Assembly: GCA_016800925.1 (NCBI GenBank)
Contig: JABCPU010000055.1
Location: forward strand, 62,001 to 126,000
Origin: Suillus spraguei
Taxonomy: Eukaryota > Basidiomycota > Agaricomycetes > Boletales > Suillaceae
Length of the DNA: 64,000 nt
Direction of reading: 5' to 3'
Shown here: piece by piece, positions 38,361 through 58,418 of the stretch
Layout: every line of letters begins with the position of its first letter
Position numbering within the stretch: position 1 is the first letter of the stretch
The notes under the pieces: model-generated
Databases searched by the model: none
Told to the model about the DNA's origin: nothing
Seen by the model: the letters and a program-made list of their open reading frames with translations, nothing else
Position numbers and translations under genes: made by a program

Positions 38361-38415
38361 CACAAGATGTGGGCGCAGGTCTGAATGTAACTGTAGATGG
38401 AATTTGGAGCCCCTT

Positions 38416-38490
38416 CAGTGACAAACTCCGTACTATACAGGTCACCCGACCCACATAATATCCCGTCAAAGACAGGCCAGCGGATGATGG
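38416..38490 (+). repeat. Left terminal inverted repeat of the 17-kb KDZ element (imperfect)
   Basis: Compared with the reverse complement of about 55682-55756, roughly two thirds of positions agree. The best block is CATAATATCCC (38453-38463), followed by GGCCAGCGGA and ATGGGCC. Confidence 0.6.
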
Positions 38491-38945
38491 GCCGAGGTTA
38501 TGTATATCCTTGATGTTGACAGATGGGCCGGGGGGAATATTATTTCCGATGGAGATGGGTGGGCCGGGAGACTTGTATTTTCGGGAGAGATGGGTGGGCC
38601 GAGGGAAACATGATTTCTGATGTTGACGGATGGGCCAGGGGGATATAATCCCCGACAGAGATGGGTGGGCCCATCTGGGTAGTATGTAGAGTAGGATATT
38701 ATAGACAGCTGGGCTGAAGAGAGATGCAAGGCAAATATTATTGCATAGACGGGTGGGCCAAGGTAAGAGAATATTACATATACGGGTGGGCCGAGGTGAG
38801 AGAATATTACATATACAGGTGGGCCGAGGTGAGAGAATATTACATATATGGGTGGGCCGAGGGTGCAGTAAAATATTTATTGCATAGACAGGTGGGCCAA
38901 TGTGAGGTAATATATTACATATATGGGTGGGCCTAGATATGTATC
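38473..38945 (+). repeat. Left subterminal array of GGGTGGGCC units
   Basis: About twelve copies of a motif close to GACGGGTGGGCCGAGG alternate with AT-rich spacers. From 38749 four units are spaced exactly 33 bp apart (38749, 38782, 38815, 38848). The right end of the element has the same motif on the opposite strand. Confidence 0.9.
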
Positions 38946-39094
38946 ATAAAGACATACAGCTGATGTAGCCACCAGAGAATCAAACACATAGGATACATGC
39001 ACCCTATGAGTGCATATACCTACCATTGACCACCAAAATCTAAACCCTGAAGCACGAAAACCTGAATTCATCATGTCTGACATTCATCGATAAT

Positions 39095-41105
39095 TGAGGT
39101 GCCGGGTGCCAGGTGCCAAGTCCCGAATCCAGGAACTCGAAACTGGAGATTCAAACTAGAGATTTCCTGAATTCCAGATACCTGGACACCCGAAACACAA
39201 CACACAAGGTGAAAGATTTAAAGTCCATGTGTGGAGTCATCTAGTGCTGAGTGCTGGGTGCGGGTGCAGAGTACCGAAACTAGAAACTAGAAACTCGAGA
39301 TTCAAGACAAAACAGACATCTACCAAAAATGTGTGGATCAAAGTTTTGTTGTTGCCTGACATGTGTCTGAGTCCTGAGGACCGAACCCCGAAATTGTAGA
39401 CTACCGGATTTCGGGATTCGGGGTTCGGCACTCGAGATTTGAGATTTGAGATGAAAAAGATATCTACCAAAAATGTGTGGATCAAAGTCATTTTATTGCC
39501 TAACATTGTTTTTGGTCTCAAGTGCAAAAGCCCGAGTACCGAACCGCGAACCCCTAAATAGTAGACTACCAGATTTCGGAGTTCGGAGTTCGGCACTTAG
39601 AATGTGTGGATCAATAAGTGTCTATTGCCTCACATTGTTCTGAGTCCTGAGTCACAAGTGCTGGGTGCCAGGGTTCAGGGTTCAGCACTGACAATATGTT
39701 GCTCAAGATCTTTCACATTATGAGTACCAAGTCCCGAGTGCCGAGTGCCGGGTGCCGGAGCTTGGAAGTCACGAGTCCCAAGTGCCGGGTGCCGGAGTTC
39801 GGGGTTCAGCACATAAAATATGTGGATCAAGGTCTTTCACATTGTTTTGACTGCCGAACCCCGAGCTCCGGCACCCGGGAGTTAGCACAATGTAAGGCAA
39901 TACCATGATATTGATTTACACATGTTGAGTGCCGAACCCCGAGTGCTGGAGCTCAGGGTTTGGCACATAAAATATGTGGATCGAGGTCTTTCACACTGTT
40001 TTGACTGCCGAACCCCGAGCTCCGGCACCCGGGAGTTAGCACAATGTGAGGCAATACCATGATATTGATTTACACATGTTGAGTGCCAAACCCTGAACTC
40101 CAGCACCTGGCACTCGGGACTCCGGACTTCCGAGCTCCGGCACCCAGGAGTTAGCACAATGTGAGGCAATACCATGATATTGATTTACACATGTTGAGTG
40201 CCGAACCCCGAGCTCCGGCACTCAACATGTGTAAATCAATATCATGGTATTGCCTCACATGGTAACCCGGCACTCGGTGATCGTGATTCGGGACTCAACT
40301 TTGTATTGCCTCACATGGTTCTAACTCACGGGTGGCGGGGTTCGGGGTCGGTGTTAAAATATGTGGATTGATATCTGTCTCATTGTTATGAGTACCAAGT
40401 CCCGAGTCCCGAGTGCTGGGTGCCGGAGTTCGGGGTTCGGCATTCAACATGTGTACATCAATATCTTTGTATTGACTCACATTGTTCTCACTCCCGGGTG
40501 CTGGGGTTCGGGGTTGGGTGGTTAAATTTGTGGATCGATATCTTTCACATGGTTATGAGTCCCGAGTCCAGATTCCCAACTGCCGGGTGCCGGAGTTCGG
40601 GGTTCGGCACTCCCCACATGTAAATCAATATCTTGGTATTGCCTCACATATTTCTAACTTCCGGGTGCCGGGGTTCGGGGTTCAGTGATAGAAAATGTGC
40701 ATCGACATCTTTCACATTGTTATAAGTTCCAAGGCCTGAGTGCCGGGTGCCGGAGTTCAGGGTTCGGCACTGAACATGTGTCAATCAATATCTTTGTATT
40801 GCCTCACATTGTTCTAACTCCCGAGTGCCTCAGCACATCAAATATGTGGATCAATATCTGTCACATGGTGATGAGTCCCAACTCCAGGGTCCTGGGGTTC
40901 GGGGTTCGGCACTTAAGATATATGGAATGATATGTTTCACAATGTGACCCGGCACCTGGCACAAGGTAACTCGACAGGTACGTTTCAAATTCTTTAAATT
41001 GTGTGTTGTGTTTGAGGTAGCCGGATATCCGGCATTCGTGAAATATCCATTGTGAATTTCCAGTATCCAGTTCCGGATTTCCGGATTTGGCATCCAGCAC
41101 TGACA
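39095..41105. repeat. Left GC-rich minisatellite block
   Basis: Many degenerate units combine a GC-rich core (CCGAGTGCCGGGTGCCGGAG, TTCGGGGTTCGGCAC) with an AT-rich linker (ATGTGTGGATCAATATCTTT, CACATTG). Units occur in both orientations: mostly minus-type to about 40215, then plus-type. The frames in it are artefacts of the repeat. Confidence 0.9.
40159..40260. repeat. Perfect palindrome with 45-bp arms
   Basis: Arm 40159-40203 is the exact reverse complement of 40216-40260, with a 12-base spacer (AACCCCGAGCTC). It marks the point where the minisatellite units switch orientation. Confidence 0.93.
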
Positions 41106-41143
41106 TTCATTCAAACATTGTATATACATCTATGAACATACAC

Positions 41144-43282
41144 TTATGTAGCCATTTCACCCTCATCAGCAGAGGGTTCAACCTTCACCTCAACATCCAT
41201 ATCATCAGAATCATATTCTGGCACAAGGTTGCCCGGATCATCTGGGTCCACAAGTTCGCCGGACGTTTGTGGACCCTCAGGCTGAATCTGGCTCAGCTCA
41301 AATATGAGACCCTCAATGATAGATGCAGGCTGGACTTTCGGAGATGGAGGCTCCATTCCTGCCATATCCAAGTCAATGAGGGGAGCAAGTGCAGATGGGA
41401 GGGGTGAGATGGACAGGGGGACAGATTGATCAAGCAAAAAGGTTGCATTGACAGGAGAGTCGGGAAGTGGAAATGAAGGGTGCCTGTCCATGACTTTGCG
41501 ACGAAGGCCCTCATGGAGGTGTTGCAGGGTATCAATCTTACCATCCTGCTCCGCCACATGAGCCTCAAGAAGAGCAATTCGAGCAGCACCATCCCGAATA
41601 GCAATTGCCATGGAATGGAGATCCGGCATGGGCACATTGAGTGCCAGACGAGGCACTGCGGCGCTTGAAGACGGAATAGCTAAGTGAAAGATAAGGTCAG
41701 ATGGTCATAGACAATTGGGGTGACTCACAAGCTGGTGCAGGTGCAGGTGTCTTGGGGGCAGTGATTGTCTTGCTGCGCCCACAGGACTGTGCCTTGGGTG
41801 TGGTCACAGCAGGGACAGCTGGAGTGCCGGAGGGGCCACAAGATTGACTGCGAGTTCGGGCTTTGGACTGTGAGGCAGCCGGCGCATTGGAGGGAGCTCT
41901 GGAAGGTGTCCTGGAGCGAGCCTGCCGGGTGGTAGACTTCCCTCGAATACGTTTTGGCGGGGATCCCATGGATGCTGGGACACATTTGATCTTCTTGGTG
42001 GTGCAGTGGACGCACAACAAACATGGGGCACGGGTCCTCCTGTCCAACCGAGTGGCGCAGGGCCACTTCTCCTGGGTGCAATAATGGCAGGGGTTGTTCT
42101 GTGGGTTCCATTAGTTGATGGACTCATTGGAATTCATTAGAGTACTCACTGGGCCAGGAATGAGAATATCACCTGTATCCATGACTGCAGGTTCCTCAGC
42201 CAGAGTGCTGGACATTACCTGGGGGGTCTCGACGACCTCCGGACGACTGCCGGAGGTGGCCTGACAATGGGTAAGTACAGGCGGGAGGTCCGGACAAAGA
42301 ATCATGACTCACCATCACCTTGGGTGGACTGCCGGCAATGAGCTGATGATATATAAGCATTTTTCCAAGTGCCAGACAACTAAATATTACTTACTGAAGC
42401 AGGACCAAACAATTGCTTCTTTGGGGAACATGGTGAACGAGGGGAATGAGGCATCCCTACACCAATTGTGGAAGGCTGGGGAACGTTGAGTGCCGGCACT
42501 CCACTCGAAATAGGCTACAGAAAATTGAGAGAATGAAAACAATGAGCTGGACGACATACCTGAACAATTGTGTCTTCATCATCTTCCGACTCCACAAACA
42601 CCTTCGGCTTCACATGGCGAGTTGCCTTGACCCGCTTGCGACCCTTCTTCGCCAACTTTGGAGGTGAGGAAGAGTGTCCAGACATCATGGGGGACTTCCT
42701 CTTCCTGCTCCCTTCCACCTCCGGCTCTGGGTCAGCAACAACCGCCTTACCTTTTCCTTTGTCCCAGAGCTCGGAGGTGGCGTGGGTGGAAGAACCAGCA
42801 ACATTGCTGGTGACGACGGGTGGGGAGGGAAGGTCCACAGTGATTGGGCCAATGGAAGGGTTAGGCATGACAGGGAGATCACCTGAATGGTCACCTAATG
42901 CCTCCCAGGCGCGAATCTTGCTGCACCAGGAGTGTTTCAACACCTGGGGGTCGTCATGGCCGATGCTGTGCCAGTTGGGCCACACCCAGGGAGTCATGGA
43001 CCTGACTCTCATCAACTCCTTGGAGCAGGATGCAATGATGCCGGGCATGTAAGGCCCTTTCTCATGCTCCCGGACAATCTCAGCCTACCCAGATCTTAGA
43101 AAAACCAAAAGTAAAATTAACACATGAATGGTACTTACCACAAGATTAGTGACTTGTGCTGTCAGAGCAAGGTGGGCTTGGCCAGTGCCGGCAGGCATGA
43201 GCCGAGCCCCGGCGATGATGCCCACAATCTGAGCAGTGGTTGCCTTGAGACTGGCCAAAGAGGTTTCAACTGAAGTAGACAT
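41144..43282 (-). CDS. KDZ cargo gene A, unknown function
   Basis: The start is MSTSVETSLASLKATTAQ at 43282. Exon 1 ends TAQVTNLV; a GTAAGT intron joins it in phase to AEIVREHEKGPYMPGIIASC, then ELMRVRSMTPWVWPNWHSIG and SWCSKIRAWEALGDHSG. A basic, low-complexity middle follows (SRKRKSPMMSG, PPKLAKKGRKRVKATRH). Later exons give APCLLCVHCTTKKIKCVPAS, a Cys-rich/basic motif of the kind C-x2-C-x2-C-x6-C, a Ser/Pro/Thr/Arg-rich linker, and a C-terminal part with a predicted coiled coil (IRDGAARIALLEAHVAEQDG) and an acidic end (EYDSDDMDVEVKVE). No enzyme domain is recognised. Basic patches and the Cys motif suggest a nuclear, perhaps DNA-contacting, protein (inference). It shares a 219-bp divergent promoter region with cargo B. 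Confidence 0.6.
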
Positions 43283-43501
43283 TTGGATTGACTTGAAAGA
43301 TGTGAAAAGCTGGAGATAAGTTTGAAATCTGTGATCACTTGGATGAAGTTTCAAAAGAAACCAGACAATTGAAGGACAATCTTGATAAGCATTGATTGTT
43401 TGTCTTTGTTTGGTCGTGGTTCAACTTTCGGCCGTTGCCAGCCATGTGTTGAACTTCGAAGTTATCAGTTATCAATCAGTTTGATCAGTTGATCAGACAT
43501 C
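43283..43501. promoter_or_regulatory. Shared head-to-head promoter region of cargo A and B
   Basis: The start codons of the minus gene (43282) and plus gene (43502) are 219 bp apart, leaving room for one bidirectional control region. No clear TATA box was identified. Confidence 0.5.
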
Positions 43502-44518
43502 ATGAGATCTCAACCAGCAGTCAGATTTTATGAACCTCCGGTCACTGAATACAACTCAATGGATGTGGATGATTCAACCGAGTCCCGGATTTCACTAGGT
43601 ATGTTGTGCTTTCAGTACAGCTCTCAATTGACCGGAGATGGACCAGATGCACTGGATGATGTATACCTTGGGCCGGATGATGAGACTGAGTCCCGGATTT
43701 CATCAGGTATGTGTTGCTTTGAGTATATCTTACAATTGACTGGACATTTATTAGATCCATGTGAAGATGTATACCTTGGGCCGGATGATGAGATCGACTA
43801 TGATTCTGGGTCATCAGGTGTTCCGGATGTCTTGGATGCAGTTTCTGGTAGGTTTCTCACTTCACCTTTAGATAGTCCAACTGTGGATGTTCATTCAATC
43901 CATCCAGATCATTTATGCCCGGCTCAGCCTGAGGAACTGCCTTTGTTCAACGATCCGGACTTGTACCTAGGGCCTGATGATGATCTTATTGATTGTGATG
44001 AAGCACCGGAATGTGCTGATGTTGAGATTGATGCTCCGGCTATCCCAGGAATAGCAATTCCAGGTGAGTTCACTCATACAATCTCATTTTTATTGTTGAT
44101 GTGATGTCCCAAGCACATGCAACACCTCCTAAATGTCAGTCCCCCATACTGGAACTCAGCAATGAAGACCTGCGTGCCATGCTTAGGGAGTTCATGCCCC
44201 TAGGGTCATATGATCAAACAGAATGTGAGTATTTAATTGTTCATCATGTATCATTCTGCTAATGTTCTTGAAGTTGAATCAATTCTGGATCGCCTGGACC
44301 ATTACCAACAGCGTCATGGCCATCTTCCGGAGCCTACCGTACATCAACTCCTCGAGGCCGACCGACCATTCCGAGTGGCTTGGGCTGACACATCCGACAA
44401 ACTCAGAAGAGCTGATATGGACCTCCGGAGGTTGCAAAGGGCCAAACAGATGAGCTCTGAATTGCTGCTTGTATTAGATACCCTCATTGAAAAGTGTGAT
44501 GATCAACCCCATATGTAA
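43502..44518 (+). CDS. KDZ cargo gene B with repeated exon modules, unknown function
   Basis: The start is MRSQPAVRFYEPPVTEYNSM. Phase-1 introns (CAG or TAG then GT...AG then AT) separate near-identical modules ending in DVYLGPDDETESRIS, so the protein repeats DxYLGPDD four times: twice as DDVYLGPDDE/EDVYLGPDDE, then DLYLGPDDD after AQPEELPLFN, with a related DSTESRIS at the start. After PAIPGIAIPG the chain continues through SPILELSNEDLRAMLREFMP and ends with a helical domain (VESILDRLDHYQQRHGHLPE ... LRRADMDLRRLQRAKQMSSE). It is highly acidic and has no enzyme motif. Similar helical tails occur in agaric transposon cargo; I cannot name the family. Exon duplication is visible at the DNA level around 43572-43790. 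Confidence 0.6.
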
Positions 44519-44619
44519 ATATTTGGATATTCATTCACATACTTACATCATGTTCACCACTGAATTTTTCATGTATAACAATGACATTTCCAATTGATTT
44601 TAGATGATGCACACACCCG

Positions 44620-44935
44620 ATTGTCCCATTCCAACAGCCAATTATTGATTCCCGGGGTCCGGAGCTCGGTGATTGGGATTCATCCGGAACTCGGTGATCG
44701 GGTTTCGTGATATTTGGATTTTCATTCACATACTTAAATCATGTGAACCACTGAATTTTTCATGTATATCAATGACAGTTCCAATGTATTTTAGATGATG
44801 CACAAACCCTAATCTCTAATACCAACTACCAATGATTGATACCTGGGTGCCGGACCTCGGTGATCGGGAGTCGTCCGGAACTCAGTGATCAGGATTCGTC
44901 CGGAACTCGGTGCTTAGGATTCAACATTTTGGAAG
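44620..44935. repeat. Short internal repeat block
   Basis: A unit containing CACATACTTA.ATCATGT..ACCACTGAATTTTTCATGTAT and then GGAACTCGGTGATCGGG occurs twice (from about 44535 and 44725), with extra copies of the CGGTGATCGGGATTCGTCCGG core. It separates the convergent 3' ends of cargo B and C. Confidence 0.75.
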
Positions 44936-45010
44936 TGGGACACTGTGTTTTGAGAAGTGTGACAAATGATGAAAATGTGGTAAACATGGGGGCAGTTTGG
45001 TATATGTACA

Positions 45011-46777
45011 TTATTTCCTTCCCCTTGCCCTGGTTACTCGAAGTGTACTCTCTACCGGCTTTTGAGACTTACTCCGGGTGGTCCTTGCGGATGGTTCAAT
45101 GACAGCTTTCTTGCCCTGTATACTCCTTGGTTCCGGCGATGCGTTCCTCTCTTCCACTTCCTCAGTGATCCCGGCCAGGAGGTCGCCCATCCATGATGTC
45201 AAAAGTGCACCTGCCTTGGCCGGCCTGGCCGGGCGAGGCTCCGGCATTGAACATGGAACTTCTGTCTCGTTGGGTGCTGAAGATGGGTGTGCTATTTGTC
45301 TGGGTTTCTTCAGTGGGGATCGACCATCAGCCGAGTCATCATCAATGTCATCCTCCTTGTCATGAGTTTCACTGTCGGTATCACTCTCGGCTTTGGTTGA
45401 TGGATCCCGGGGCCTTCAGAGAGTTCCACTCTTCTGCATTCTCACTTGACGAGTCAGACGCGATGGCGACTTGCCGGATACCACAGATGGTACCATGTCC
45501 CCATCCTTGTTCTTCCATGCTTTGAACAGAAATGTTGAATCTTTTCCTGTTTCCTGCTGAGCATACCAGAAATTGAGCAAGGCCGTTGTGTCCCAGTTTT
45601 GCAACTTCGAAGGCTCCTTCAGGTCAATATCCGCTGGAAGATACTTCCTTGCCACAAAGTCATCCTGACTTTGTATGAGGGCACTCCATGGCACAACAGC
45701 CTTGTCATTCCCGGAACATATTCCTGTGTCCACGCATTCAGCAACAGCTCAGATGTTGCCACGAAAGACTCACTGTAGTGCAATGTAAGAAACGCCCTGA
45801 CTATGGCTTTCTTCTCCTCAAGTTTTGTTTCCGTGATGTCTGGAAGCAACGGCATCCCATTTCCATCTGTGTCGAGTTCAAAAGCTGGTTTTCTGACTCT
45901 TTTGCGACCTCCCTTGACCTGTCGTCCTCCTGCCATACTGGCTCAATGTCCTCCCAGTCCTTTGTCTTCATGAAGCTGTCCCCATCTCCTAATGCCTCAT
46001 TATCATCATGCCTGCACACATATATTGAGATCCAAGATCGGCGATGACGGACACAATTGACTTACATCCCGAACAGAACCTCTCCCTGTTCATTCTTCCA
46101 AGCTGACAACACAAAAACTCTCATCCCGCATTGCCTCCACATCTCTTTCGAAAAGTGCTCCATATATGCCGGTCCCTTCTTACGAGCAACTTCTGCTTGT
46201 ATCTCCGGAGGAGGAAAGCTGTTTGACCATTCTTCCGCTGTTTCTTTTGCCTTCTCCAACTTGTCATCGTCCAATTCAGCCATGACTCTCTTCACAGCCC
46301 CCTGATAATGTTTGAACATACTGGGATCTCCCGGCTTTGCCCCGGACTCGTCCTCAATCCTCTTTAGCACCTCTTCGCGCTTCTGCTGGTAGACCACCAT
46401 CCTAGGCGTCCATTTCCTCCCATACTTTATCATGTCCTTCCTTTCCTTCCTTTTCTTGTTGTTGAACAACCAAGTGTTATACATCTGAGAGTTGATGGAG
46501 GAATAAGATGTTAAAATTGTAGTTTTTCAACACAACGAAGACGCATCACCTGCTTCCTCTTTTTCCATTGTCCTTGGTCGACTTTAGGAGCAAACAACCT
46601 GGCTGCCCTGGCAATTGCAGTGAAAACCCCTTGCTTCTCACCCCTTTTGGCCACGGTCCACTCAGGAAGGTAGTTCTTCAACTCCGAAATTTCGTTTTCC
46701 GTGAGCTTCTGTGTCTGTGGTTGACGTGCCCTATTTCTGCTGGAAGTCAAGTGAGTGGAATGACCCGTCCTTGCCAT
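45011..46777 (-). pseudogene. KDZ cargo gene C, conserved agaric family, probably broken
   Basis: The start is MARTGHSTHLTSSRNRARQP. The chain reads LPEWTVAKRGEKQGVFTAIA, QWKKRKQ|MYNTWLFNNKKRK (clean intron), AYMEHFSKEMWRQCGMRVFV and EVLFGM|HDDNEALGDGD (clean intron), then KGGRKRVRKPAFELD, LEEKKAIVRAFLTLHYR|ICSGNDKAVVPW (intron), FVARKYLPADIDLKEPSKLQ and DTTALLNFWYAQQETGKDS. A similar protein is frequent beside agaric transposons (from memory); its role is unknown. Two defects appear: the frame changes between EDIEPVWQED and the KGGRKR text near 45950, with no usable intron, and a TGA interrupts the frame near 45420 (KSGTL then RPRDPSTKAESD). The tail is basic with an RxRGRK end. It shares a 237-bp promoter region with the transposase. 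Confidence 0.6.
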
Positions 46778-47014
46778 GGTGAATCAAATTGCAGAATGGG
46801 CTGAGGATAAGCAAGGTGGAAGAATGAACGAATTGACAGAAGTTGATCTTTGACAAAAGCCTAACAGTAGCTTAATTGAGCTATATTGGTCCCGAAGCCA
46901 TAAATGGACATAAATTTGTAATGAGTCGGCAGGACTGTATGACACCACAATGTAATAAAAATTCATTCCACCTGAGCAGATGCTTTGCTTGCAACATTAG
47001 CATTATAAAATAAG
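46778..47014. promoter_or_regulatory. Shared head-to-head promoter region of cargo C and transposase
   Basis: The minus start at 46777 and the plus start at 47015 are 237 bp apart. An AT-rich segment with TTATAAAATAAG lies at about 47003-47014, just before the transposase ATG. Confidence 0.5.
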
Positions 47015-50000
47015 ATGAAGATAGGTAGATGCACCCCATTGCAAAAATCCCACAGGGTAGAAGCAAGGGGCAGCAAGGGTAGAAAGATTTGGGTCAAGGT
47101 CCCACTTGCAAGCACAAGACGACGAGCCTACAGGTCCATGCCTCCCTCTCCCCCAGAATCACCAACACTTCAGCCTGTTCAGGCACCACCTCCTTGGGAT
47201 GACTTTCCTGACAATACTTACGAGCAAGACCAAGGCTCATTTGAGCCATTGCAACTCCCAAAAACCATGGCAAGTTCATGTTAAATGTTGGAGTGTCATT
47301 CAAACTATAGCTAAATATAAAAAATGCAGAGTCAAAATGACTACCTCAGGAAATGGCTGCCAAGGCAGGAATCATATCTGCATCACCTCCTGGATCGAGA
47401 AGCTCCACCAGAAGACAGGAGATGCACCACCAGGATGGGGTCTACAAATGTCAAGATTGTCTTGGCGAGCCTCTCTATTGCACGGGCTGTTGCAGGAGTC
47501 AACATCGTTGCAATCCTTTCCACTGGATCAGTCAATGGAATGGTCAATTCTTCGAGCAGAGTTGTCTCGCTCATGTGGGACTCACCATACACCTCGGGCA
47601 TGATGGCAAGCAATGTCCGGTGCTCACAGATAGGTGGGATTTGTTTGAAGGAGATGAACCTGAAGACCAGCTTGAGCCCGAAGATCTTCCGTCTGTGTCG
47701 GGACCTGAGTTCCAGCCGAAGGAAAACACCATGGTCATCGTTGACAAGTCTGGAGTTCACCGCCTCGAGGTTCGCTGCTGTGATTGTCCAAATGCCATGA
47801 GTCCGGACATTCAAATGTTTTGGCATGGATTTTTCCCTGCATCGTTTAACAGGCCGAAGACCGTGTTTACCTTCGGAGTGCTGGATGATTTTCTATTGGA
47901 CAACCTTGAATGCGGCACCTCCGCAATGAACTATTACAGTAAGCTCCGGCGAATGACCTCGAGCATGTTTCCACACCTTGTTCCGGTAATGCTATTTGTG
48001 CTTCATCTAAAGGACATGATGTTGACACAGGCCGTGGCAAGGATCGATACAGAGAGCTCATGAGAGTCGCTCGACAGTGGAGGCAGTTGAAGACCATGAA
48101 ATGGCATGGCTATGGCCATCGTTCTGACATCCCGAACGCAGGAGATCTTGCATTATTTTGCCCGGCATGTCCTCAGCCTGGGATTAATGTATCTTTGTCA
48201 GGGGATGAATCACTTGATGAGTGAGTCATGTTCAATACCGAAGTGAACTCGGCGATGATAAGAACTCCAAGCTGGAAATACACCCGGTCATTTGTGATGG
48301 ACGGAAATTTCAAAGCTGAACACCTGCATCCCATTAATCCCCTCGATGAAGTTTGGCTTTCAGATGGGCTTGGATTCATGGTTGGAAAGGACAGGTATAA
48401 CATGCATCTTGCGGAGGCTGCTGACACGGTGGAAAAATCGAGCTGCAACAATCACCGGGCGGTCAATCAAGCAAATGCGGCGCGGCACAAGCTCGAGTCC
48501 ACAGGAATCGGGGGAGTTCCTGCGCCCGGCATGGGTGCTTTGTCCCTCACTCGATGGTTGATTTTCAGAAAGGGGAAAGGCAAGCCAAACATGCCATTCG
48601 ACATTCACTAGTTGACCATGCATCATTTGCAGACAAATGAACATGGACTATGCCATTTGTGAGGCTGCCCAGCACAACATGGAAGGCATTACCAGGGCTG
48701 TCACCTTCTATGACATCAATTGTCAATACAACAAGCACTTTCGTGTTCGGGTGGATCGAAGCCGATACCTTGACATGGTACCGGAACTGACCATCATTCC
48801 TGGAATCGGTTTGTGGCATGTGCATGGACATCAGGACAGTTGCTATGTCCGATATGCTTCAAATTTTATTGAAGGCATTGGCCGGATTGATGGAGAGATC
48901 ATGGAGACCCTATGGGCGCGTCTCAACCTGATTTCCCCTGCCGCTCGGGGAATGTCATCCCCGCACCGAAAGGAATGTCTTGATTATCAGATGAACGATT
49001 CCAATTTCTGCAAGATGATCCGCATGAAAAGGACTCTTTGCCGGAAATACAAGCTGGCGAAGAATGGCATCGCCGAAAGTGGCAAGGCTTTCGACAGACT
49101 TGATGAAGCTGCACCCGGCAATTTAAAGACACAATGGTTAGCCAGCGAGATGGTGCTCAGTCCAAGAGAATCAGGGATCCTGCGGCGATGGATTTATATG
49201 AAATCAATATCAAGAAGGGTAAGTTAACATTCTTTGTCTCCGTGGAGCTCCGCATTCATTTTTCACTTAGCACCAAGCAAAAAGGAGATCGAGCTTAGAC
49301 TACTAGAAGCGGGTAATGCCCGTCATGCAGCACCCTCTCGCAGATCTGTGGCAACATGGATATCCATTGGGTTGGCAATTGAAGAGGCCCAAATTGCATT
49401 GCTCATCGAGGTCCGCAGAATTGGAAGACGATCGACGGAGACACAGAGATTAGATATCGCCCGGCAATGCGATCGTATTCAAGGCCAGATAGATGAATTC
49501 ACTCGGTCTGCTCTTACGCATCTGGGAGAGGGATTTGATGCAGATGACGATCCTGACGACTTGAACATAGATATTCTTGACGATATCGATGATGACCCGG
49601 CGGATTTCACCGAGACATCTGATGCATGGACAAACTCCCCTGAGCTCACCATAATTCCATTGCCATCAAACCTCGGGGTTGAACATTGCAGACGCTGTAT
49701 GGCAGAGGATCTGATTCTGTTGGAGATGTCGCTTCGTGAAGGGCAGGCCAATGATGCCCTGCACAATCTCCGCATTCACTTGTGCAACAAGGCTATCCTG
49801 TTCCGAACAACAGTTAGGCAAGCCAAATCTCAAGCCCTAAAAACTCGAGCGTGGTCCCAGGTGACATCAGTGCAGCAGGCAGTATCCCTACATGCCAGTA
49901 TATATACAAAAACCAGGAAGCAAATGATACAACTTGAGCCGGGGCCAGACCAGCTTCAGAAATACAAACCCCTGCTTCGCGAGCAGCTCAAAATCAGCAC

Positions 50001-50437
50001 TGCCATCGGCGATCCAAACGCCCGAGGTCAGCGAAATGAGTCCCTCGCTTGGTTCTGGTCAGTGGAAGTCGACATGGAGGGTCCAGAAATTCCTGGAATG
50101 AGGAATGTGAGTTCGGGCATGCTTGATATATTCCGTGGTGAGCTGACAGGACCCATCCCAAGTTTACCGAGTTCATTGGCTTCGGGCAAAGGCACTACGG
50201 GATCGATGGATGGAAGAAATATCATTGGTGCAATCAGAGATGGATTGGACGTGCAACTTTTTCTTGTGGAAGGCAACCACATGGGGTGCCCGGATGCAGG
50301 AATCATTGTTGAAACAACTTCCGGGTCATGCATGCTATGCCGGAAGGCAGTCTCAAATGTATTCCTTACTAGCTCAGGATGCACAGGCAGCATTTCAAGA
50401 CCTGCAGCCCTCGTTGATCGATGGTGCACATGAATGA
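47015..50437 (+). pseudogene. KDZ transposase with three frame breaks
   Basis: KDZ enzymes are RNase-H-fold transposases with Cys clusters. Exons: 47015-47269, 47330-47985, 48042-48220, 48263-48579, 48633-49218, 49271-50106 and 50150-50437. Introns 1 and 4 are GC-AG. Domain order: the lead NDYLRKWLPRQESYLHHLLD; the CxC2 cluster (YKCQDCLGEPLYCTGCCRSQ, HVGLTIHLGHDGKQC); RYRELMRVARQWRQLK; the catalytic Asp segment RSFVMDGNFKAEHLHP; RHGCFVPHSMVDFQKGER; second Asp in AVTFYDINCQYNKHF; HVHGHQDSCYVRYASNF; Glu in GRIDGEIMETLWARLN; and a C-terminal VYRVHWLRAKALRDRW. One base appears missing (or two extra) at each of three places: about 47422-47432 in the first Cys pair, the G5 run 48510-48514, and about 49168-49176. 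The family core is otherwise complete. Confidence 0.9.
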
Positions 50438-50607
50438 ATTTGTTTTGCTGATGAAACGCATATTTGACACCCAAACATTGAGTCCCGGGAATTGTCCGGG
50501 TCAGCCCATGTCGGAGTTTGAATTCTAATCCATCCATCAGTGACTCATATCATCAGCTCTTCACCATCTGTCAGTGTCATTCCCAGCGTCACACTCTTGC
50601 ATTAGCC

Positions 50608-51409
50608 ATGCCTGAAACTCCTGCATCCACATCTGGCACTCCAAATACTGGACATCACTGGCAACCCATGAAGCTGAACCTTCAAGATATTTCTTGTACT
50701 TTGAATATGGCTGCATCGCGCATCCGCGCATGTATCTCTCAATATCAGATGGAGGCTGCTAACAACCCTCCCTCTTCTGCCCGGATCATGTACTTTAAAG
50801 CTGGGGTGCAATGGGAAATCAATGTAAGTGACTGATGACCGGATGACCGGCTGACTTTTTTGGGCAATGCTGAGATTTCCAACAGACATTTGTTACGCCA
50901 CTCCTGCAGTACTCAGCTGCAAGGAACATCGTTTCTGTTGTTCCAAGCCCCGTCGCTCATGTCCTGACATTGTATCCCATGCTCACCTGGAACACTGTTC
51001 CAGACCACATCTTTTCATCCCACCTATGTCAGTTTGATGATGTCGCAGCTCCGGGACATCCATCCGGATTATTCCCAGCTATGATACTCCATGGTGGATG
51101 GGACACACCGAAATTCCGAATGAACCATGGCAATGGGGTCAGATCATGAGGTCCTGTGTCGTTCACTACCAGCATTGGATGGTAAATGGAGTTGAGGATG
51201 ATGGCTTGGTTCTTCCTGAGGAGGTAAATGACTCATCAGGCCCATCAGTGATGGGACTTAAGATGATTCGAGCACGCCTGGTAGCATTGATGGAGGAGCA
51301 AGATGAGGGTATCCATGAGAAGATGGCAGAGGTGAAGATGTACACTGACATGCTACAGAGATTGAAGAGAGGCAGGGGAGTGGAGTCCTCTTCACTGTGT
51401 TTAGATTAG
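50608..51409 (+). CDS. KDZ accessory gene D, unknown function
   Basis: The start is MPETPASTSGTPNTGHHW. Exon 1 ends ARIMYFKAGVQWEIN with a GTAAGT donor at 50824 and an acceptor at about 50885, giving TFVTPLLQYSAARN. A region reading LRDIHPDYS and one reading YDTPWWMGHTEIPNEPWQWG near 51040-51130 lie in different frames without a convincing intron, so a frame break is likely there. The last part (MIRARLVALMEEQDEGIHEK, AEVKMYTDMLQRLKRGRG) is a helical coiled coil. It is co-directional with, and 170 bp downstream of, the transposase, as accessory genes often are. No known domain was recognised. Confidence 0.45.
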
Positions 51410-51469
51410 AATGGTCTTCATTTCATACATGATGTAAAATATTTTATTCCGTCCAAATGATTGTCTTGA

Positions 51470-52885
51470 CTCCCGAATATTTTGTTCCGGATTTTGAGGA
51501 CTGGATGTCAAGATCCGGATGTAGAGTCCTAAATCCCAAATGCTGAGTGGTGAATGCCTGAGTGCAATGGTACTTAGAGTTTGGGACTCAATTCATGGGA
51601 CTCGACTTCCGAATGGCAAGATTGCCTCACATATTTCTGAGTGGCGAGTCATGAATCTTAGGTACCGAACCCCGAACCCCACAATTGTGGACTACCGGAT
51701 TTCATGGTTTGGGGTTCAGCAATCAAGGTTCGAGACGAAATAGATATCTGTGCGACAGTGCGGGGTTCGGCAGTCAACATATGTGGATCAATAACTTTCA
51801 CATTATTCTGAGTGCCGAGTCCCGAGTTCCGGGTGCCGGGCCTCGGCAGTCGGCGTTCGGCACTTCACATGTGTGCATCCATATCATTCACAATGTTGTG
51901 AGTCCCGAGTCCGAGTCCGGCTGCCGGAGTTCGGGGTTCGGCACCCAACATGTGTGGATTATTCTGAGTGCCGAGTGCCGAGTTCCGGGTGCCGGGGCTC
52001 GGCAGTCGGCGTTCGGACTTAACATGTGTGCATCAATATCATTCACAATGTTGTGTGTCCCGAGTCCCGAGTTCCGGCTGCCGGGGTTCGGGGTTAGGCA
52101 CTTTACATATGGGAATCAGTATCTTTCACAATGTTGTGAGTCCCGAGTTCCGGCTGCCGGAGTTCGGGGTTCGGCACTCAACATGTGTGGATTATTCTGA
52201 GTGCCGAGTGCCGAGTTCCGGGTGCCGGGCTTGGCAGTCGGCGTTCGGACTTAACATGTGTGCATCAATATCATTCACAATGTTGTGTGTCCCGAGTCCC
52301 GAGTTCCGGCTGCCGGGGTTCGGGTTCGCCACTTGATATGTGGGAATCAGTATCTTTCACAGGGTTCGGCATTCGGCGTTCGGCACTTTACATGTAGGAA
52401 TCAATATCTTTCTCGTTGTTCTGAGTCCCAAGTCCCGACCGCTGGCTGCCGGGGTTCGGAGTTCGGCCCTCAACATGTGTGGATCAATGACTTGCACATT
52501 ATTCTAAGCCCAGTCCCGAGTGCCGGCTGCCGGGATTCGGAGTTCGTCATTTATGATATGTGAATTCACATCTTTCACATTGTTCTGAGTCCCAAGTCCT
52601 GAGCTCCGGCTGCCGGAGTTTGGGATTTGGCACTCACTATATGTGAATTCATATTTTTCACATTGTTATCAGTCCTGAGTCCCGAGTGCCGGCTGCCGGG
52701 GTTCGGTGTTCGGCAGTCAAAATGTGTGGATCAAGGGTCTGTTGCCTCACACTTTCCTGAGTCCCGAGTGTGAAGCCTGAATTCGGACTATCGATCATTG
52801 AGTCCCTAATTTCGAGGATTGAGTCCCGAGTCCCGAGATACACAGAGTTAGGGACTCAATTCATGGAACTCGACTTCCGACTTGA
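51470..52885. repeat. Right GC-rich minisatellite block
   Basis: The same unit type as 39095-41105 (CCGAGTTCCGGGTGCCGGG core plus ACATGTGTGGATCAATA linker), here mainly in plus orientation. A longer period is visible: the segment from about 51888 (GAGTCCGAGTCCGGCTGC) to 52190 recurs from about 52140 onwards. Open frames in it are repeat artefacts. Confidence 0.88.
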
Positions 52886-52974
52886 GTTCCAGAACTGTTG
52901 ATGCTCTAATTGGTACATGGTATTCGTGTGTTGCTACTAACATGGGTCACAACTCTTTCAACTTCTTTGATCTT

Positions 52975-54280
52975 TCACACCGTGCTTAGTATGCGGCCTT
53001 CGACCATAGCCCATCCACATGAGGGAACCCCGGCATAAATGTGCACAGAATCCCTCATATACCATGCCCAAGCAATCCGATCCCCTTCCCCTCCATCAAC
53101 ACCATGTCTCACAATTCTTCCCGAAAATGCAATCATACAGCCGGAATCATACCTGAATTCCAGCTGAAGGCTTGGCATACTCATCCGAGCATTAGAATAG
53201 TTCCCCACGGTGGTGAGAATATCGAAGCATTCAGGAATCGATAAATGGTCTCGATGATTGGGGGTTTCCCGATTGGAAATGATGGAGAGGCTGTTAAACA
53301 CGGATGCCCAGTACTGCAGGGTCTCTGGCATCTGTGGCAGTTCCTTGCTCACTGCCTTATCTCCGAGGTGTGACAAGGCTCGTAACCCTGCAAAATACTG
53401 CTGAGGATGCATGACCCTGAGTGCCGCCGATGCGATGGCTGCCGGCCTTGCAATAGCTTTCAGGATATTCTCGGAGGAGGGTCCCTTCAATGATGCGGAT
53501 ACCTCCGGATCTGACAGATTCTATGGGATTGGTGAGTTTGACTCCAGAAATCACCATCTCATCACATCCTACCTCGTGGCCCTGTTGAAACCATGCCGGA
53601 GATAAATTGATGCATCCGGGAGTTGACCCAACATTTTCCGAGCCCTGTTTGAACCATTCTTGATTATATCGCCAATTGCCATCAGCCTTTACACTTTTTT
53701 CGAGGCTTGGACCCAGCAAATCGTGGCCGCCCTGATTTCCTTCTGTAGGTACCATTTGATATTCAATATCCATTGAGTAACAATCTACACATTATGCACC
53801 TGGGTGGTCTCGGTCAGGGCGTCCGGAAGGTACCATGCGATGATGGTACCAGAAACATCGATAATTGTGGCAGGTTTGTCCACCACCTTTGTGCCCTCAT
53901 GGCCAGGAGGACACCTCTCAAGCAACTTCTCCTCTTTCTCCTCATTATGCCCAGTGTTCTTTGGGGATATCAATTTGCTATATCTTGCAATATCAATCTG
54001 TATCTTAACTGTCATGAAGGAATTTGAATGATCAAACACATTTTCAACATCTGCAGGAAGACCCACTGGGATTTTTATATGCCTTTATGAGTACATCAGC
54101 CAAGCGATCGCACGCCATCACCAGATCAGTGTCCAGGTTCGGAGAAGGTATAACCGGTTCTCCTCCAGTCTTCTCTGCATTGAATTTTTGTTCGGTATAT
54201 GCCCCTGCTTCATGAGTGATGGCCAGGGCCCAAGTGCGCCAGATTTTTATGTCACAAGTGGACATGGAAGAAGTGTTCAT
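52975..54280 (-). CDS. TET/JBP-type 2-oxoglutarate/Fe(II) dioxygenase
   Basis: TET/JBP enzymes oxidise 5-methylcytosine or thymine in DNA using Fe(II) and 2-oxoglutarate in the nucleus. Four minus exons fit in phase: 54280-54067, 54008-53800, 53731-53573 and 53520-52975. Landmarks in order: MACDRLADVLIKAYKNP, KPATIIDVSGTIIAWYLPDA (the family's strand before the core), GCINLSPAWFQQGHE, MPETLQYWASVFNSLSIISN, then the metal-binding H-x-D in NRETPNHRDHLS, ECFDILTTVGNY, LEFRYDSGCMIAFSGRIVRH (third metal ligand His) and the 2-oxoglutarate-binding Arg in GEGDRIAWAWYMRDSVH. The frame is open with no lesion, unlike its neighbours. Length (about 370 residues) is close to compact fungal members; the N-terminus could extend upstream. 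It lies 1.6 kb from accessory D, inside the KDZ element. Substrate choice cannot be told from sequence. Confidence 0.88.
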
Positions 54281-54469
54281 GTTGCAAGTTGATATTGGGA
54301 AATCAGACGCTGAATGCTGGATGTCCAGACTTTGGTGTAAAGGGGGTGGAGATAGCGAGGATCAGATAAGGGAACCTTGGATGATGTTGGCTTTCAAAGC
54401 TGTATTATCATCCATTGCTCAATGAAATACCAGATGATTGGAAGTGTGCTGGATATCTGATATTCATTT

Positions 54470-55215
54470 GTCCAGACCCGGGTTCGGAACTCCGGAACTT
54501 GGTATGCTTCACTCAAATTTCGGGGGTCGGAACTGGGTGTCTCGTATTGACTGAATTATGTGTCGAGACCCGGGTCTCGGAACTCGGAACTTGGTATGCT
54601 TCATCCGATTTTCGGGGGTCAGAACTGGGTGTCTTGTAGGGCAACACAAGCCTCGCACCCCGCTTTCCACATTCTACAAGATAACCTAAGCGCCATAAAG
54701 GCCATTTCAAGACATCACTTGCTGCTCCTGGAACTTGGTATGCTTCACTCAAATTTCGGGGTCGGAACTGGGTGTCTCTTATTGACTGAATTATGTGTCG
54801 AGACCCGGGTCTCGGAACTCGGAACTTGGTATGCTTCATCTGATTTTCGGGGGTCGGACTGGGTGTCTTGTAGGGCAACACAAGCCTCGCACCCCGCTTT
54901 CCACATTCTACAAGATAACCTAAGCGCCATAAAGGCCATTTCAAGACATCACTTGCTGCTCCTGGAACTTGGTATGCTTCACTCAAATTTCGGGGGTCGG
55001 AACTGGGTGTCTCTTATTGACTGAATTATGTGTCGAGACCCGGGTCTCGGAACTCGGAACTTGGTATGCTTCATCTGATTTTCGGGGGTCGGAGCTGGGT
55101 GTCTTGTAGGGCAACACAAGCCTCGCACCCCAGTTTCCACATTCTACAAGACAACCTAAGCGTCACAAAAGGCCATGTCAAGACAGCACCTGCTGCTCCG
55201 GGAACTCAGTAACTG
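54470..55215. repeat. Three tandem 235-bp units upstream of the TET/JBP gene
   Basis: The landmark TGTCGAGACCCGGGTCTCGG occurs at 54561, 54796 and 55031, exactly 235 bp apart. Each unit also has GCAACACAAGCCTCGCACCC and AAGACA.CAC.TGCTGCTC. The landmark itself is a near-palindrome (GAGACCCGGGTCTC). Confidence 0.95.
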
Positions 55216-55284
55216 TGATTTATTACCTCCTCTGATTCAGATGATATGCAACTCCCTCAGCTCCGTCATGTCTACCATTATCAT

Positions 55285-55700
55285 ACACATGGGCCCACCC
55301 GTCTATATTTTATACCACCCTCGGCCCACCCGTCTAATATAATATACTGTACAACACCCTCGGCCCACCCGTCTAATAAATATTTATATAACACTCTCGG
55401 CTCACCCGTCTAATACCCGTCTAATTTAATATGTGTCTGGGCCCACCCGTGTATGTGATAACAAGTACCCTTCACATACCTGTCTATTTGATACACATCT
55501 ACCTTGATACACCCATCTACATGATATCCAACTACCTCGGCCCATCCGTCTACCGGATATTCATGTACATCGGCCCACTCATCTACTCTACATATTCCTT
55601 GCATGGGCCCACCCGCTGTCATCGGGAATAATATTCCTCCCGGCCCATCCGTCATCAACGAGGATATTTCTACCATGGGCCCATGGTCCGCTGGCCCGTA
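55285..55700 (-). repeat. Right subterminal array of GGCCCACCC units
   Basis: About nine copies of CTCGGCCCACCCGTCTA or variants, the reverse complement of the left array motif, separated by AT-rich linkers. Confidence 0.88.
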
Positions 55701-55756
55701 TCATATGGGATATTATGCACGTCCGTTCACTCGTATAATACAGAGATAGTTCACTG
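55682..55756 (-). repeat. Right terminal inverted repeat of the 17-kb KDZ element (imperfect)
   Basis: Partner of 38416-38490. Best blocks are TCCGCTGGCC and GGGATATTATG, ending TCACTG. Confidence 0.6.
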
Positions 55757-56420
55757 TAATATGTGCAATCCACCCATCCACTCCAATCCATATCCATCTA
55801 TATCTAATCCATATCCATATCCGACTCAGTCCATCCATCCGATCTGATCCACCCATCCGATCCATGCTCATACCCGAAACTATTCCCGCGCACCTGCGCA
55901 TTACTCCTTTTTGGTTAATACCTGTGTCCGGCTTTCAGTTATCTCTGCACCTCTGACTTTCGGTTATCTTGACTTCTGTCTTGATAAGATATTTCGTACA
56001 AGTCTTATTTCCAAGTTCATAGCCTTGTGTTCCGCAACGCCTCAAACATAGCCTCAGACTATCCTTACTTGCCTTCCGGCATGCTACCTACAGTATATAA
56101 ACTTGTAGTACAACTCCTGCAGACCTCAATCTGATCATTGCTTTCCTACTTCTGTATATTCCTTTGACTTCTGTATCTTGTTACCATGTCTATATAAATC
56201 CGTTTCCGTTCTCACACTTGGGCTCCGGCCCTTGTAAGCTTCCGACTCAGACCTATGAAATCATTCCCTAGGCCGGAGCCTTGATCCTTTGTCCTATATC
56301 CTTTTACTATTTCTATACCATATCCGGACCTACTCCCCTCTAGTAGTCAACACTTCCCCTAAGATCCATAGAGCTATGCTCATCCAATCATCTGCTTGTC
56401 CACTCTTCCGCTCTTCTGCT
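55757..56420. other. Spacer, perhaps an old LTR fragment
   Basis: No gene. Two TATA-like motifs (AGTATATAAAC near 56092, CTATATAAATCC near 56191) and a segment running from about TGTCCGGC (55926) to GTCAACA (about 56352) recall an LTR, but no second copy is in the window. An inverted pair GGCTCCGGCC and GGCCGGAGCC (56221 and 56272) could form a hairpin. Confidence 0.3.
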
Positions 56421-56425
56421 CTTCT

Positions 56426-57380
56426 TGTTACAGTTGTACGTGCCCCTATTCATTTTCCCTTTATCTTCTTACTTGTATATCATGTCACATCTGTTACAAA
56501 CTGGGGTGGCGTCACCAGCGACAGTGAAAAGACACAGCCAGTACGCTGGGAAGTTCTTACAATGTCCAGAAGAGGACAAGGTGAAAGTACAAGGAATGCG
56601 TTCCGAGTACGATTAAGGGTTCGGCCTCAAAGACAAGTCTAAGAGGTTCTGCGAGAATAGAGACTAAGGCTAAGGAGTGCTTAGACTTAGAGATGATTCA
56701 AGACGACTTAGGTTGGAGACCTAAGCGAAGGGGATTCCAGGTAAAACCCAGTAAGATTAAAGTAAAGAATCTACTACAAGTACACTGTGCTTAAATAGGC
56801 CAATATGTACGCACAGACCAGGTAACCGTGAGAACATAACTGCGTATCCTAATAAGGAAGGCATGTGTTGTACAGATGCATTGAGCATATGAGTCAGAGT
56901 CATGTGACATGATATACAAGAAAGAGAATAAAGGGAAAATGAATAGGGGCACATGTAACTGTAACAACATGACTCCGACTCATATGCTCAATGCATCTGT
57001 ACAACACATGCCTTCCTTATTAGGATACGCAGTTACATTCTCACGGTTACCTGGTCTGTGCGCACATATCTACCTATATAAAGCACAGTGTACTTGTAGT
57101 AGATTCTTTACTTTAATCTTACTGGGTTTTACCTGGAACTTCCTTCGCTTAGGTCTCCAACCTAAGTCGTCCTTGAATCGTCTCTAAGTCTAAGCACTCC
57201 TTAGCCTTAGTCTCTATTCTCGTAGAACCTCATAGACTTGTTTTTGAGGCCGAACCCTTGATCGTACTCGGAACGTGTTCCTTGTACTTTCACCTTGTCC
57301 TCTTCTGGACATTGTAGAACTTCCCAGCAGACCGGCTGTGTCTTCTCACTGTTGCTGGTAACGCCACCCCAGTCGTAACA
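56426..57380 (+). repeat. 5' LTR of the chromovirus, interrupted by a solo LTR
   Basis: The first part (56426-56491) and the rest (56967/56972-57380) together make about 475 bp, the same as the intact solo LTRs at 12978-13454 and 56492-56966 read in reverse. The promoter-like ATATAAAG is near 57077. Confidence 0.88.
56492..56966 (-). mobile_element. Solo LTR inserted in reverse into the 5' LTR
   Basis: The 475-bp copy starts TGTTACAAACTGGGG and ends TGTAACA, flanked by ACATC (56487-56491) and ACATG (56967-56971), a 5-bp duplication with one difference. The host LTR sequence continues on the other side. Confidence 0.9.
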
Positions 57381-57578
57381 AAAGATTAAAGTCTTCTTAA
57401 TCGTCGACTGTCCAGTCTTCGACCCCGAACCCTGACTGCTTAGATAAGCAGATTAGCGTATGTGTGCGCTAAACCGATTGTCAAGAGAAGCCCTCTGACA
57501 GGAGACAAGCCCTAACGGACAGCAAGACAGCGCGTGTAGGCACCGAGAAAGTATAACTCCCCATATGAATCGCCAAAT

Positions 57579-58418
57579 ATGACGACCAAAGAATTTGAAT
57601 ATAAAATCGGTCGGCCAACCAGTTTTGACGGAGATTGCGACAACTCTTGCGAGTTTATCCAGTCATGCAGTCTACACTTCAACATCAATGAAAAGCTTTA
57701 CACTACCGACAAACAGAAGATCATTTTTATAACATCCTTCATGACTGAAAAGAATGCCAAATCCTGGAAAGAGCAATTCCTTGACCATGCCCAATCAACC
57801 GACACCTCTGGACAAAAAGTTGGTTATGGAACAATGCTGGATTTTATGAAAAGCTTCAAAGAAGCCTTCGACCCAGTAGATACCAAAGGAACCGCACTCA
57901 CGAAACTCAGGGACCTCAAACAAGGGAGCGGAGATCTTCACACTTATATCGCTGACTTTGAGGCACTTGCAGCCAAGGCTCATATCATTGATAATGCAAC
58001 GAAGATCCAATTCTTCCAAGATGGCCTGAATTGGGGCATCCTTACAAAGCTTTTCGCACTAGGAGATGTCTCAGAAGTATTCCAAGACGTTGTGCTGCAA
58101 TGCATTTCCATTGACAATTCCCATCACCATCTTCAAGCCATGAGGACACGTCATGCTCCACAACAGAAGAAGAAGAACTATGGAAATGCACGTTACATAC
58201 CAAACCATGATTCCAACGCAATGGTCGTAGATCAAATCTCCGATATGGAGAGATCCGAATGCATGAAGAAGGGACAATGCTTCAGATGCAAGAAGACAGA
58301 ACACCGCATCCATAATTGTCCTGACAGAAAGAAGAAGACCCCGCTCCAACAAACCGAAGTCGTAACAGAAAGAGAAGAAGATGAAGAAACCGTGAGACGG
58401 ATTGTTGCAGATTTTTGA
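57579..58418 (+). CDS. gag: Gag polyprotein of the chromovirus
   Basis: Structural protein that forms the virus-like particle. The start MTTKEFEYKIGRPTSFDGDC leads into the retrotransposon gag domain (FITSFMTEKNAKSWKEQFLD, TKLRDLKQGSGDLHTYIADF), ending with a zinc knuckle CFRCKKTEHRIHNC (C-x2-C-x4-H-x4-C) near residues 230 to 245 and an acidic tail. The frame is fully open over 279 codons. Its TGA (58416-58418) overlaps the first codon of the pol frame by four bases (TTGA), with pol in the -1 frame. Confidence 0.93.
   Translation: MTTKEFEYKIGRPTSFDGDCDNSCEFIQSCSLHFNINEKLYTTDKQKIIFITSFMTEKNAKSWKEQFLDHAQSTDTSGQKVGYGTMLDFMKSFKEAFDPVDTKGTALTKLRDLKQGSGDLHTYIADFEALAAKAHIIDNATKIQFFQDGLNWGILTKLFALGDVSEVFQDVVLQCISIDNSHHHLQAMRTRHAPQQKKKNYGNARYIPNHDSNAMVVDQISDMERSECMKKGQCFRCKKTEHRIHNCPDRKKKTPLQQTEVVTEREEDEETVRRIVADF

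Follow-up and report, generated by a model that had tools for sequence, protein, structure and literature searches.

A Kyakuja-like KDZ transposon of Suillus spraguei that carries a TET/JBP gene and shows strong CpG decay

The window studied here is a stretch of 64,000 nucleotides from Suillus spraguei, a mushroom that lives on tree roots, and it contains a KDZ transposon in which a TET gene and a transposase gene are found together. The TET gene lies on the minus strand between positions 52975 and 54280 and is formed by four exons, as stated in the preliminary description of this locus. The features of the element are the following:

38407..55765, no strand: whole KDZ element of 17.4 kb that carries the TET gene; copies start matching at 38407 and sister flanks diverge after 55765
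38407..38510, no strand: left end, imperfect inverted repeat of the right end; its pattern has 277 genome matches
41144..43084, minus strand: further open frames that may form a second cargo gene; none reaches a Pfam cut-off; stretch common to other copies
45011..46783, minus strand: decayed cargo gene with no Pfam family over cut-off; 95-bp deletion and premature stop relative to the sister copy C703
47341..51409, plus strand: KDZ transposase gene of several exons, drawn from open frames, frame-broken as assembled
47707..47964, plus strand: CxC2 cysteine cluster of the transposase (PF18803, 89.6 bits, cut-off 27)
48282..48518, plus strand: KDZ transposase domain, first part (PF18758, 27.6 bits, cut-off 26.6)
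48631..49005, plus strand: KDZ transposase domain, second part (PF18758, 93.9 bits, cut-off 26.6)
51753..52769, no strand: tandem repeat array inside the element, downstream of TET
52975..53520, minus strand: TET exon 4; the greater part of the Tet_JBP domain lies here, including HxD, the distal His and the Arg
53573..53742, minus strand: TET exon 3, from the family acceptor; one-base deletion near 53.72 kb in the window copy
53800..54008, minus strand: TET exon 2, junctions as in the annotated sister protein P0001
54067..54280, minus strand: TET exon 1, with the same junction to exon 2 as in P0001
54490..55206, no strand: repeat of approx. 235 bp inside the element, upstream of TET
55661..55765, no strand: right end; its pattern has 295 genome matches

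The TET gene is thus flanked, within the element, by two tandem-repeat stretches (51753-52769 and 54490-55206). Matches of sister loci to the first of these arrays are found at many different offsets, and the array may therefore differ in length among copies.

Exon 4 alone was recognized in a Pfam profile search by PF12851 (Tet_JBP) with 54.7 bits against a cut-off of 34.9 (E 9.3e-15), which bears out the family assignment made earlier; judged by its sequence, the gene is a true TET/JBP dioxygenase by family. Without its exon 1, the spliced protein of the sister locus L038 aligns over approximately 207 residues with CcTet from Coprinopsis cinerea (PDB 8jkk, 7vpn, 7w5p), with E 6e-38. The HxD motif, the distal His and the near-terminal Arg fall in a gap-free alignment of both proteins and the window copy has the same letters at these places, as had been claimed for the catalytic landmarks. 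The near-terminal Arg of a TET/JBP protein is presumably the residue that binds 2-oxoglutarate. This comparison, made by sequence alone, also brings into register the metal-binding motif, formed in CcTet by His326 and Asp328 (PMC12730594), and the position of Asp337, where the window copy likewise has Asp; in contrast, the Gly331 of CcTet is replaced by Ser in most of the homologues that cover this position. That exons 1 and 2 are separated by a frameshift was considered and rejected, given that the step is a 58-bp intron that is spliced alike in P0001.

The search for TET homologues matched 239 proteins, of which 120 were listed. Among these 120, 48 extend across the four catalytic columns, 41 of them with the residues H, D, H and R; the other 72 miss one or more of these columns, partly because annotation models, that of P0001 and others, skip pieces of exon 4. 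The homologues that carry a species name are, among the 120 listed of 239, all from Suillus, with 18 species by hand count; three of the listed entries carry no species name. The predicted structure (AlphaFold) of the Suillus lakei homologue P0008 has a mean pLDDT of 34.6, too low to read the double-stranded beta-helix fold of TET/JBP enzymes from it, and a protein search with a piece of CcTet gave 622 candidates, none of them at E ≤ 0.001. A side observation concerns the public gene models (P0001, P0007, P0022 and others), which garble or omit pieces of exon 4 in such a way that the catalytic residues seem to be absent in the annotation.

At least 150 matches to Tet_JBP over the cut-off are present in the genome (all 150 that were scored, of 197 candidates, pass), a count of matches to exon 4 that takes no account of whether the genes are intact. 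By hand count, 36 of these have the 54.1 bits of the window copy, the window included, and many others score differently. Forty loci were taken for comparison, L001-L020 being the best-scoring matches and L021-L040 twenty of the same-score matches. Once L003, L024 and L032 were dropped because the gene was not fully covered, 37 sisters were aligned, 18 of the same score and 19 others; these last show 92.8-99.4% identity over the gene. A very recent arrival, which had been offered earlier as one of two explanations for an intact enzyme, is not needed in view of the many differently scoring matches and of the divergence among these 19 sisters.

The extent of the element was defined by comparison among copies. 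The left boundary, 38407, is the start of the match to other copies (8 of 1204 candidates scored), and on the right 55765 is the last position before the flanks of 13 sister loci part, as read at 14 ends; L034 and L035 have a different end, and the remaining loci of L021-L040 reach no readable end. The two ends form an imperfect inverted repeat of approximately 95 bases, one terminus beginning with CA and the other ending with TC. Searched with up to two mismatches in the 86 Mb genome, the left and right end patterns gave the 277 and 295 matches listed above, and the reversed controls gave 0. Ten end pairs located on the same contig and 9-17 kb apart were picked from the first rows among the matches listed; an exact 7-bp target duplication is found beside four of them, one being a TET-bearing copy of 17.2 kb on C427, and the other six have none. 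The window copy has no 7-bp duplication at its ends, and so may be a rearranged or recombinant insertion. The possibility that TET is a separate passenger with ends of its own was rejected, since in the sisters TET and transposase belong to one shared stretch, and divergence sets in at the end of the element. The same evidence, together with the transposase adjoining TET in the window, upholds the earlier claim that the gene is carried by a KDZ element.

A different kind of copy is represented by L069 (G000:C336:250760-260430), which measures approximately 9.6 kb and has the same two ends and a 7-bp duplication of its own. It is 92% identical to the window element over only about 0.5 kb and 1.6 kb at the ends, with weaker matches to the repeat arrays and the other end, and its open frames of at least 120 aa show no likeness to TET or KDZ by eye. 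It looks like a derivative that would have been moved in trans.

The central claim of the preliminary description was that an enzyme with no frame break is found in a dying element. In exon 3 of the window copy, nevertheless, there is a one-base deletion that is absent in all 37 aligned sisters, and with the family splice sites, taken from annotated sister proteins (P0001), the reading of the window TET stops after 158 residues. As assembled, the window TET copy is not intact. The frame is open, with 375 aa and all motifs, only if exon 3 starts at an acceptor 12 nt downstream (53731), which is probably the one used in the earlier reading. That this shifted acceptor makes the window gene functional is an improbable explanation; although all motifs are retained and the annotated sister model P0002 shows TTQ-GG at the exon 3 junction, it is the upstream acceptor that keeps the frame of the sisters, and the downstream one would break the frame in L038 and others. 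In addition, at 53795 the window copy has lost by a CpG-type change the G at position +5 of the intron 2 donor, which is kept in 18 of 18 same-score sisters and 17 of the 19 others. Under one gene model, TET has neither a frame break nor a premature stop in 15 of the 18 same-score sisters and in 3 of the 19 others.

The transposase shows breaks of the same kind. For the region 47740-51700, 15 of the loci L021-L040 align fully and the five partial ones were dropped; relative to these 15 sisters the window transposase has five one-base deletions, the missing base being present in 15/15 sisters at four sites and in 14/15 at one. No stop-gaining substitution was found in the three exon stretches of the window transposase that were examined; the earlier claim of a broken transposase stands for the gene as assembled, by virtue of the one-base deletions. 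The claim of a broken cargo gene was right with respect to the only sister compared: in addition to the 95-bp deletion, the stop codon at 45.0-46.8 kb falls in a frame that is open in C703.

Are the one-base breaks real? The window copy has one such deletion in approximately 1.36 kb of TET and five in approximately 3.96 kb of transposase. Counted over 16 copies, the transposase region shows 81 indels (78 with a length of 1 bp) versus 181 substitutions, and both kinds of change are uncorrelated over the copies (Spearman -0.04, P 0.87); L039 has 20 indels and 3 substitutions, and L027 has 31 substitutions and 0 indels. Because indels do not track substitutions among copies, assembly noise is likely, and the one-base indels would likely represent consensus error in part of the assembly. 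We would give an even chance to the reading that the TET and transposase deletions of the window copy are errors of this type, in which case the real copy would have an open TET and perhaps an open transposase; the preponderance of 1-bp indels, their independence from substitutions and the three transposase stretches free of substitution-made stops all fit with it. On the other side, the lesions of the cargo gene are of another kind, and only two others of the 18 same-score TET copies carry a coding-region indel. This reading is compatible with the explanation favoured below. Given that indels of this kind also occur in sisters with almost no substitutions, and that no correlation exists, one-base frame breaks say little on age or selection, and in this assembly they are unfit for calling element genes dead or alive.

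Changes found in a single copy and changes shared by at least two copies were each compared with the neutral expectation by mutation class. For TET (38 copies), single changes comprise 54 nonsynonymous, 25 synonymous and 6 stop changes versus 58.3, 23.6 and 3.1 expected (P 0.40), and shared changes 74, 60 and 2 versus 88.8, 43.9 and 3.3 (P 0.001); by our own arithmetic, leaving CpG changes aside, the ratios are approximately 0.86 for single and 0.38 for shared changes. For the transposase (16 copies), 21 nonsynonymous and 9 synonymous single changes compare with 19.7 and 9.5 expected, and 3 and 9 shared changes with 8.5 and 3.0. The difference between single and shared changes is weak for TET (Fisher, P 0.06) and has a P of 0.014 for the transposase; these tests are affected by the relatedness of the copies, by sequencing error in the single changes, by the sampling according to exon-4 score and by the small transposase counts. 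Since replacements are depleted among the shared changes of TET and of the transposase, constraint seems to have acted on both genes during the active period of their lineages.

These results contradict the earlier suggestion that selection acted on the enzyme alone, as the transposase shared changes are at least as constrained as those of TET. That a dying element is maintained with selection keeping only its enzyme had in its favour that transposase and cargo are broken as assembled, but TET is broken likewise, and the breaks in both TET and transposase are of the noise-like kind; we consider this explanation highly improbable. The earlier finding names the family and the setting of the gene correctly, whereas its central contrast between an intact enzyme and a dying element is wrong, both TET and transposase having one-base deletions.

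Another prominent feature of the element is its CpG decay. In the transposase region, private C-to-T changes amount to 37 at 330 CpG sites versus 6 at 1603 other C, that is, 30 times more per site. In TET, one or more of the 38 copies carry a change at 85 of 90 CpG strand-sites versus 62 of 563 other C, although the 85 sites are partly inherited and do not represent independent events. The TET changes that are private to one copy show no CpG excess (6/90 CpG versus 42/563 other C), presumably since almost all CpG have changed in two or more copies. C-to-T change is independent of the base that comes before the C (chi-square P 0.45, pooled counts). Hypermutation of the TCG type, a pattern cited for Pucciniomycotina (PMC12730594), or of the CpA (RIP-like) type was considered and is not favoured, as C-to-T concentrates at CpG and the preceding base is irrelevant. 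This CpG-focused C-to-T change is what methylated CpG would be expected to leave behind, and it departs from the TCG pattern.

The element has the hallmarks of KDZ transposons, namely PF18758 in two stretches and PF18803, all over their cut-offs. Elements that bring together KDZ and TET are already known in other mushrooms, as the preliminary description pointed out: TET-bearing Kyakuja with AG-type TET/JBP has been reported for Laccaria (Kyakuja-1_LB and -2_LB) and in five orders of Agaricomycotina, including Boletales (Kojima 2025, PMC12730594). The Suillus element shares with these the presence of a KDZ transposase and TET in one element, the 7-bp duplications and the CA at one end, as well as the Asp that corresponds to Asp337 of CcTet and Ser where CcTet has Gly331, a position at which Kyakuja TETs are reported to have Gly or Ser (PMC12730594). 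The Laccaria families have 7-bp duplications and CA..TG termini without inverted repeats (PMC12730594), whereas here the other terminus is TC, and the ends form an imperfect inverted repeat; the 7-bp duplication itself is seen in 4/10 sister end pairs and is absent at the window copy. Zisupton and Dileera leave target-site duplications of 8 bp (PMC12730594), in contrast with the exactly 7 bp of all four duplication-bearing pairs. Because of the TC end and the inverted repeat, the element is filed as KDZ and Kyakuja-like, not as a proven Kyakuja. Large sets of transposon-linked TET/JBP genes have likewise been counted in Laccaria bicolor (74 genes) and C. cinerea (47) (PMC8889193); S. spraguei resembles them in having many such genes in one mushroom genome, and differs in its at least 150 matches, which are exon-4 matches and not intact genes. 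The name Suillus has 0 occurrences in the main text of PMC12730594, and a search limited to one open-access collection of papers gave nothing on Suillus with KDZ or transposable elements, nor on Suillus spraguei. For a large family of TET-bearing transposons in Suillus, the present analysis yields a gene model, the exact ends and the target duplications, and it indicates constraint on TET and transposase in active lineages together with strong CpG decay on the element. Expansions of TET/JBP genes linked to transposons in mushrooms were reportedly already described by Iyer in 2014.

The explanation that we find fairly probable is that this is a multicopy Kyakuja-like KDZ transposon of Suillus spraguei whose TET would be a 5mC oxidase that counters CpG silencing. 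According to this proposal, the element would move as one unit, with the KDZ transposase presumably acting on the two ends, and insertion would leave the 7-bp target duplications that, like the ends, are seen in sister copies. The host would methylate CpG in the element, as its decay suggests; the TET of the element would oxidise 5mC on element DNA, as CcTet does, and this oxidation would delay silencing and help transposition. Selection would have kept TET and transposase while the lineages were active, in line with the counts given above, with decay after insertion, and the window copy would be one such insertion, with its TET exon 3 deletion as assembled. We infer an element-encoded 5mC oxidase from the CpG decay, the activity of CcTet and the presence of Asp and Ser at the Asp337 and Gly331 positions. 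The open TET of 15/18 same-score sisters counts in favour of the proposal. Against it count an open TET in only 3/19 of the other sisters, the weak difference between single and shared TET changes, the lack of a CpG excess among private TET changes, the TC terminus, and the 6/10 end pairs without a duplication, to which the window copy is added. An anti-silencing role has also been proposed for transposon TETs (PMC12730594), and the CpG decay on the element lends support to the earlier suggestion that the enzyme may act on methylated element DNA.

A main role of the enzyme in serving or remodelling the methylation of the host genome is rather unlikely, as is activity directed chiefly at a different base, for example 6mA. 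In favour of these readings, CcTet, which oxidises 5mC, is also active on 6mA (PMC11040006), enrichment of oxidised mC has been found on retrotransposons as well as on DNA transposons in two other mushrooms (PMC8889193), and the Gly331 position is occupied by Ser in 85/96 of the homologues that cover it, a residue also reported for Kyakuja (PMC12730594). Nevertheless, Asp337, which CcTet needs for its activity on 5mC, has its counterpart in an Asp of the window copy and of 72/96 covering homologues (Asn in 21), the CpG decay points to 5mC on the element itself, and the gene is located inside the element in the copies examined.

The 5mC oxidase proposed for this transposon could also work in trans, as an anti-silencing dose for the whole family: active copies would demethylate, and copies with a broken TET, as well as coding-poor derivatives such as L069, would ride along. 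This extension is tentative. If it were true, this one genome, in which the TET matches number at least 150 and differ in age, and in which nearly every CpG of the gene is changed in some copy, would hold a copy-by-copy record of an arms race. The existence of many copies of differing divergence makes the anti-silencing idea testable given methylation data.

With regard to the surroundings of the element, the plus-strand frames of a Ty3/Gypsy-type retroelement are found beside it at 57540-62413, and include gag, protease, reverse transcriptase with RNase H, an integrase zinc-binding domain and SH3_Tf2-1. At 56492-57381 there is an inverted repeat of approximately 415 bp that recurs near 12977-13454 and in the sister loci L022 and L026.
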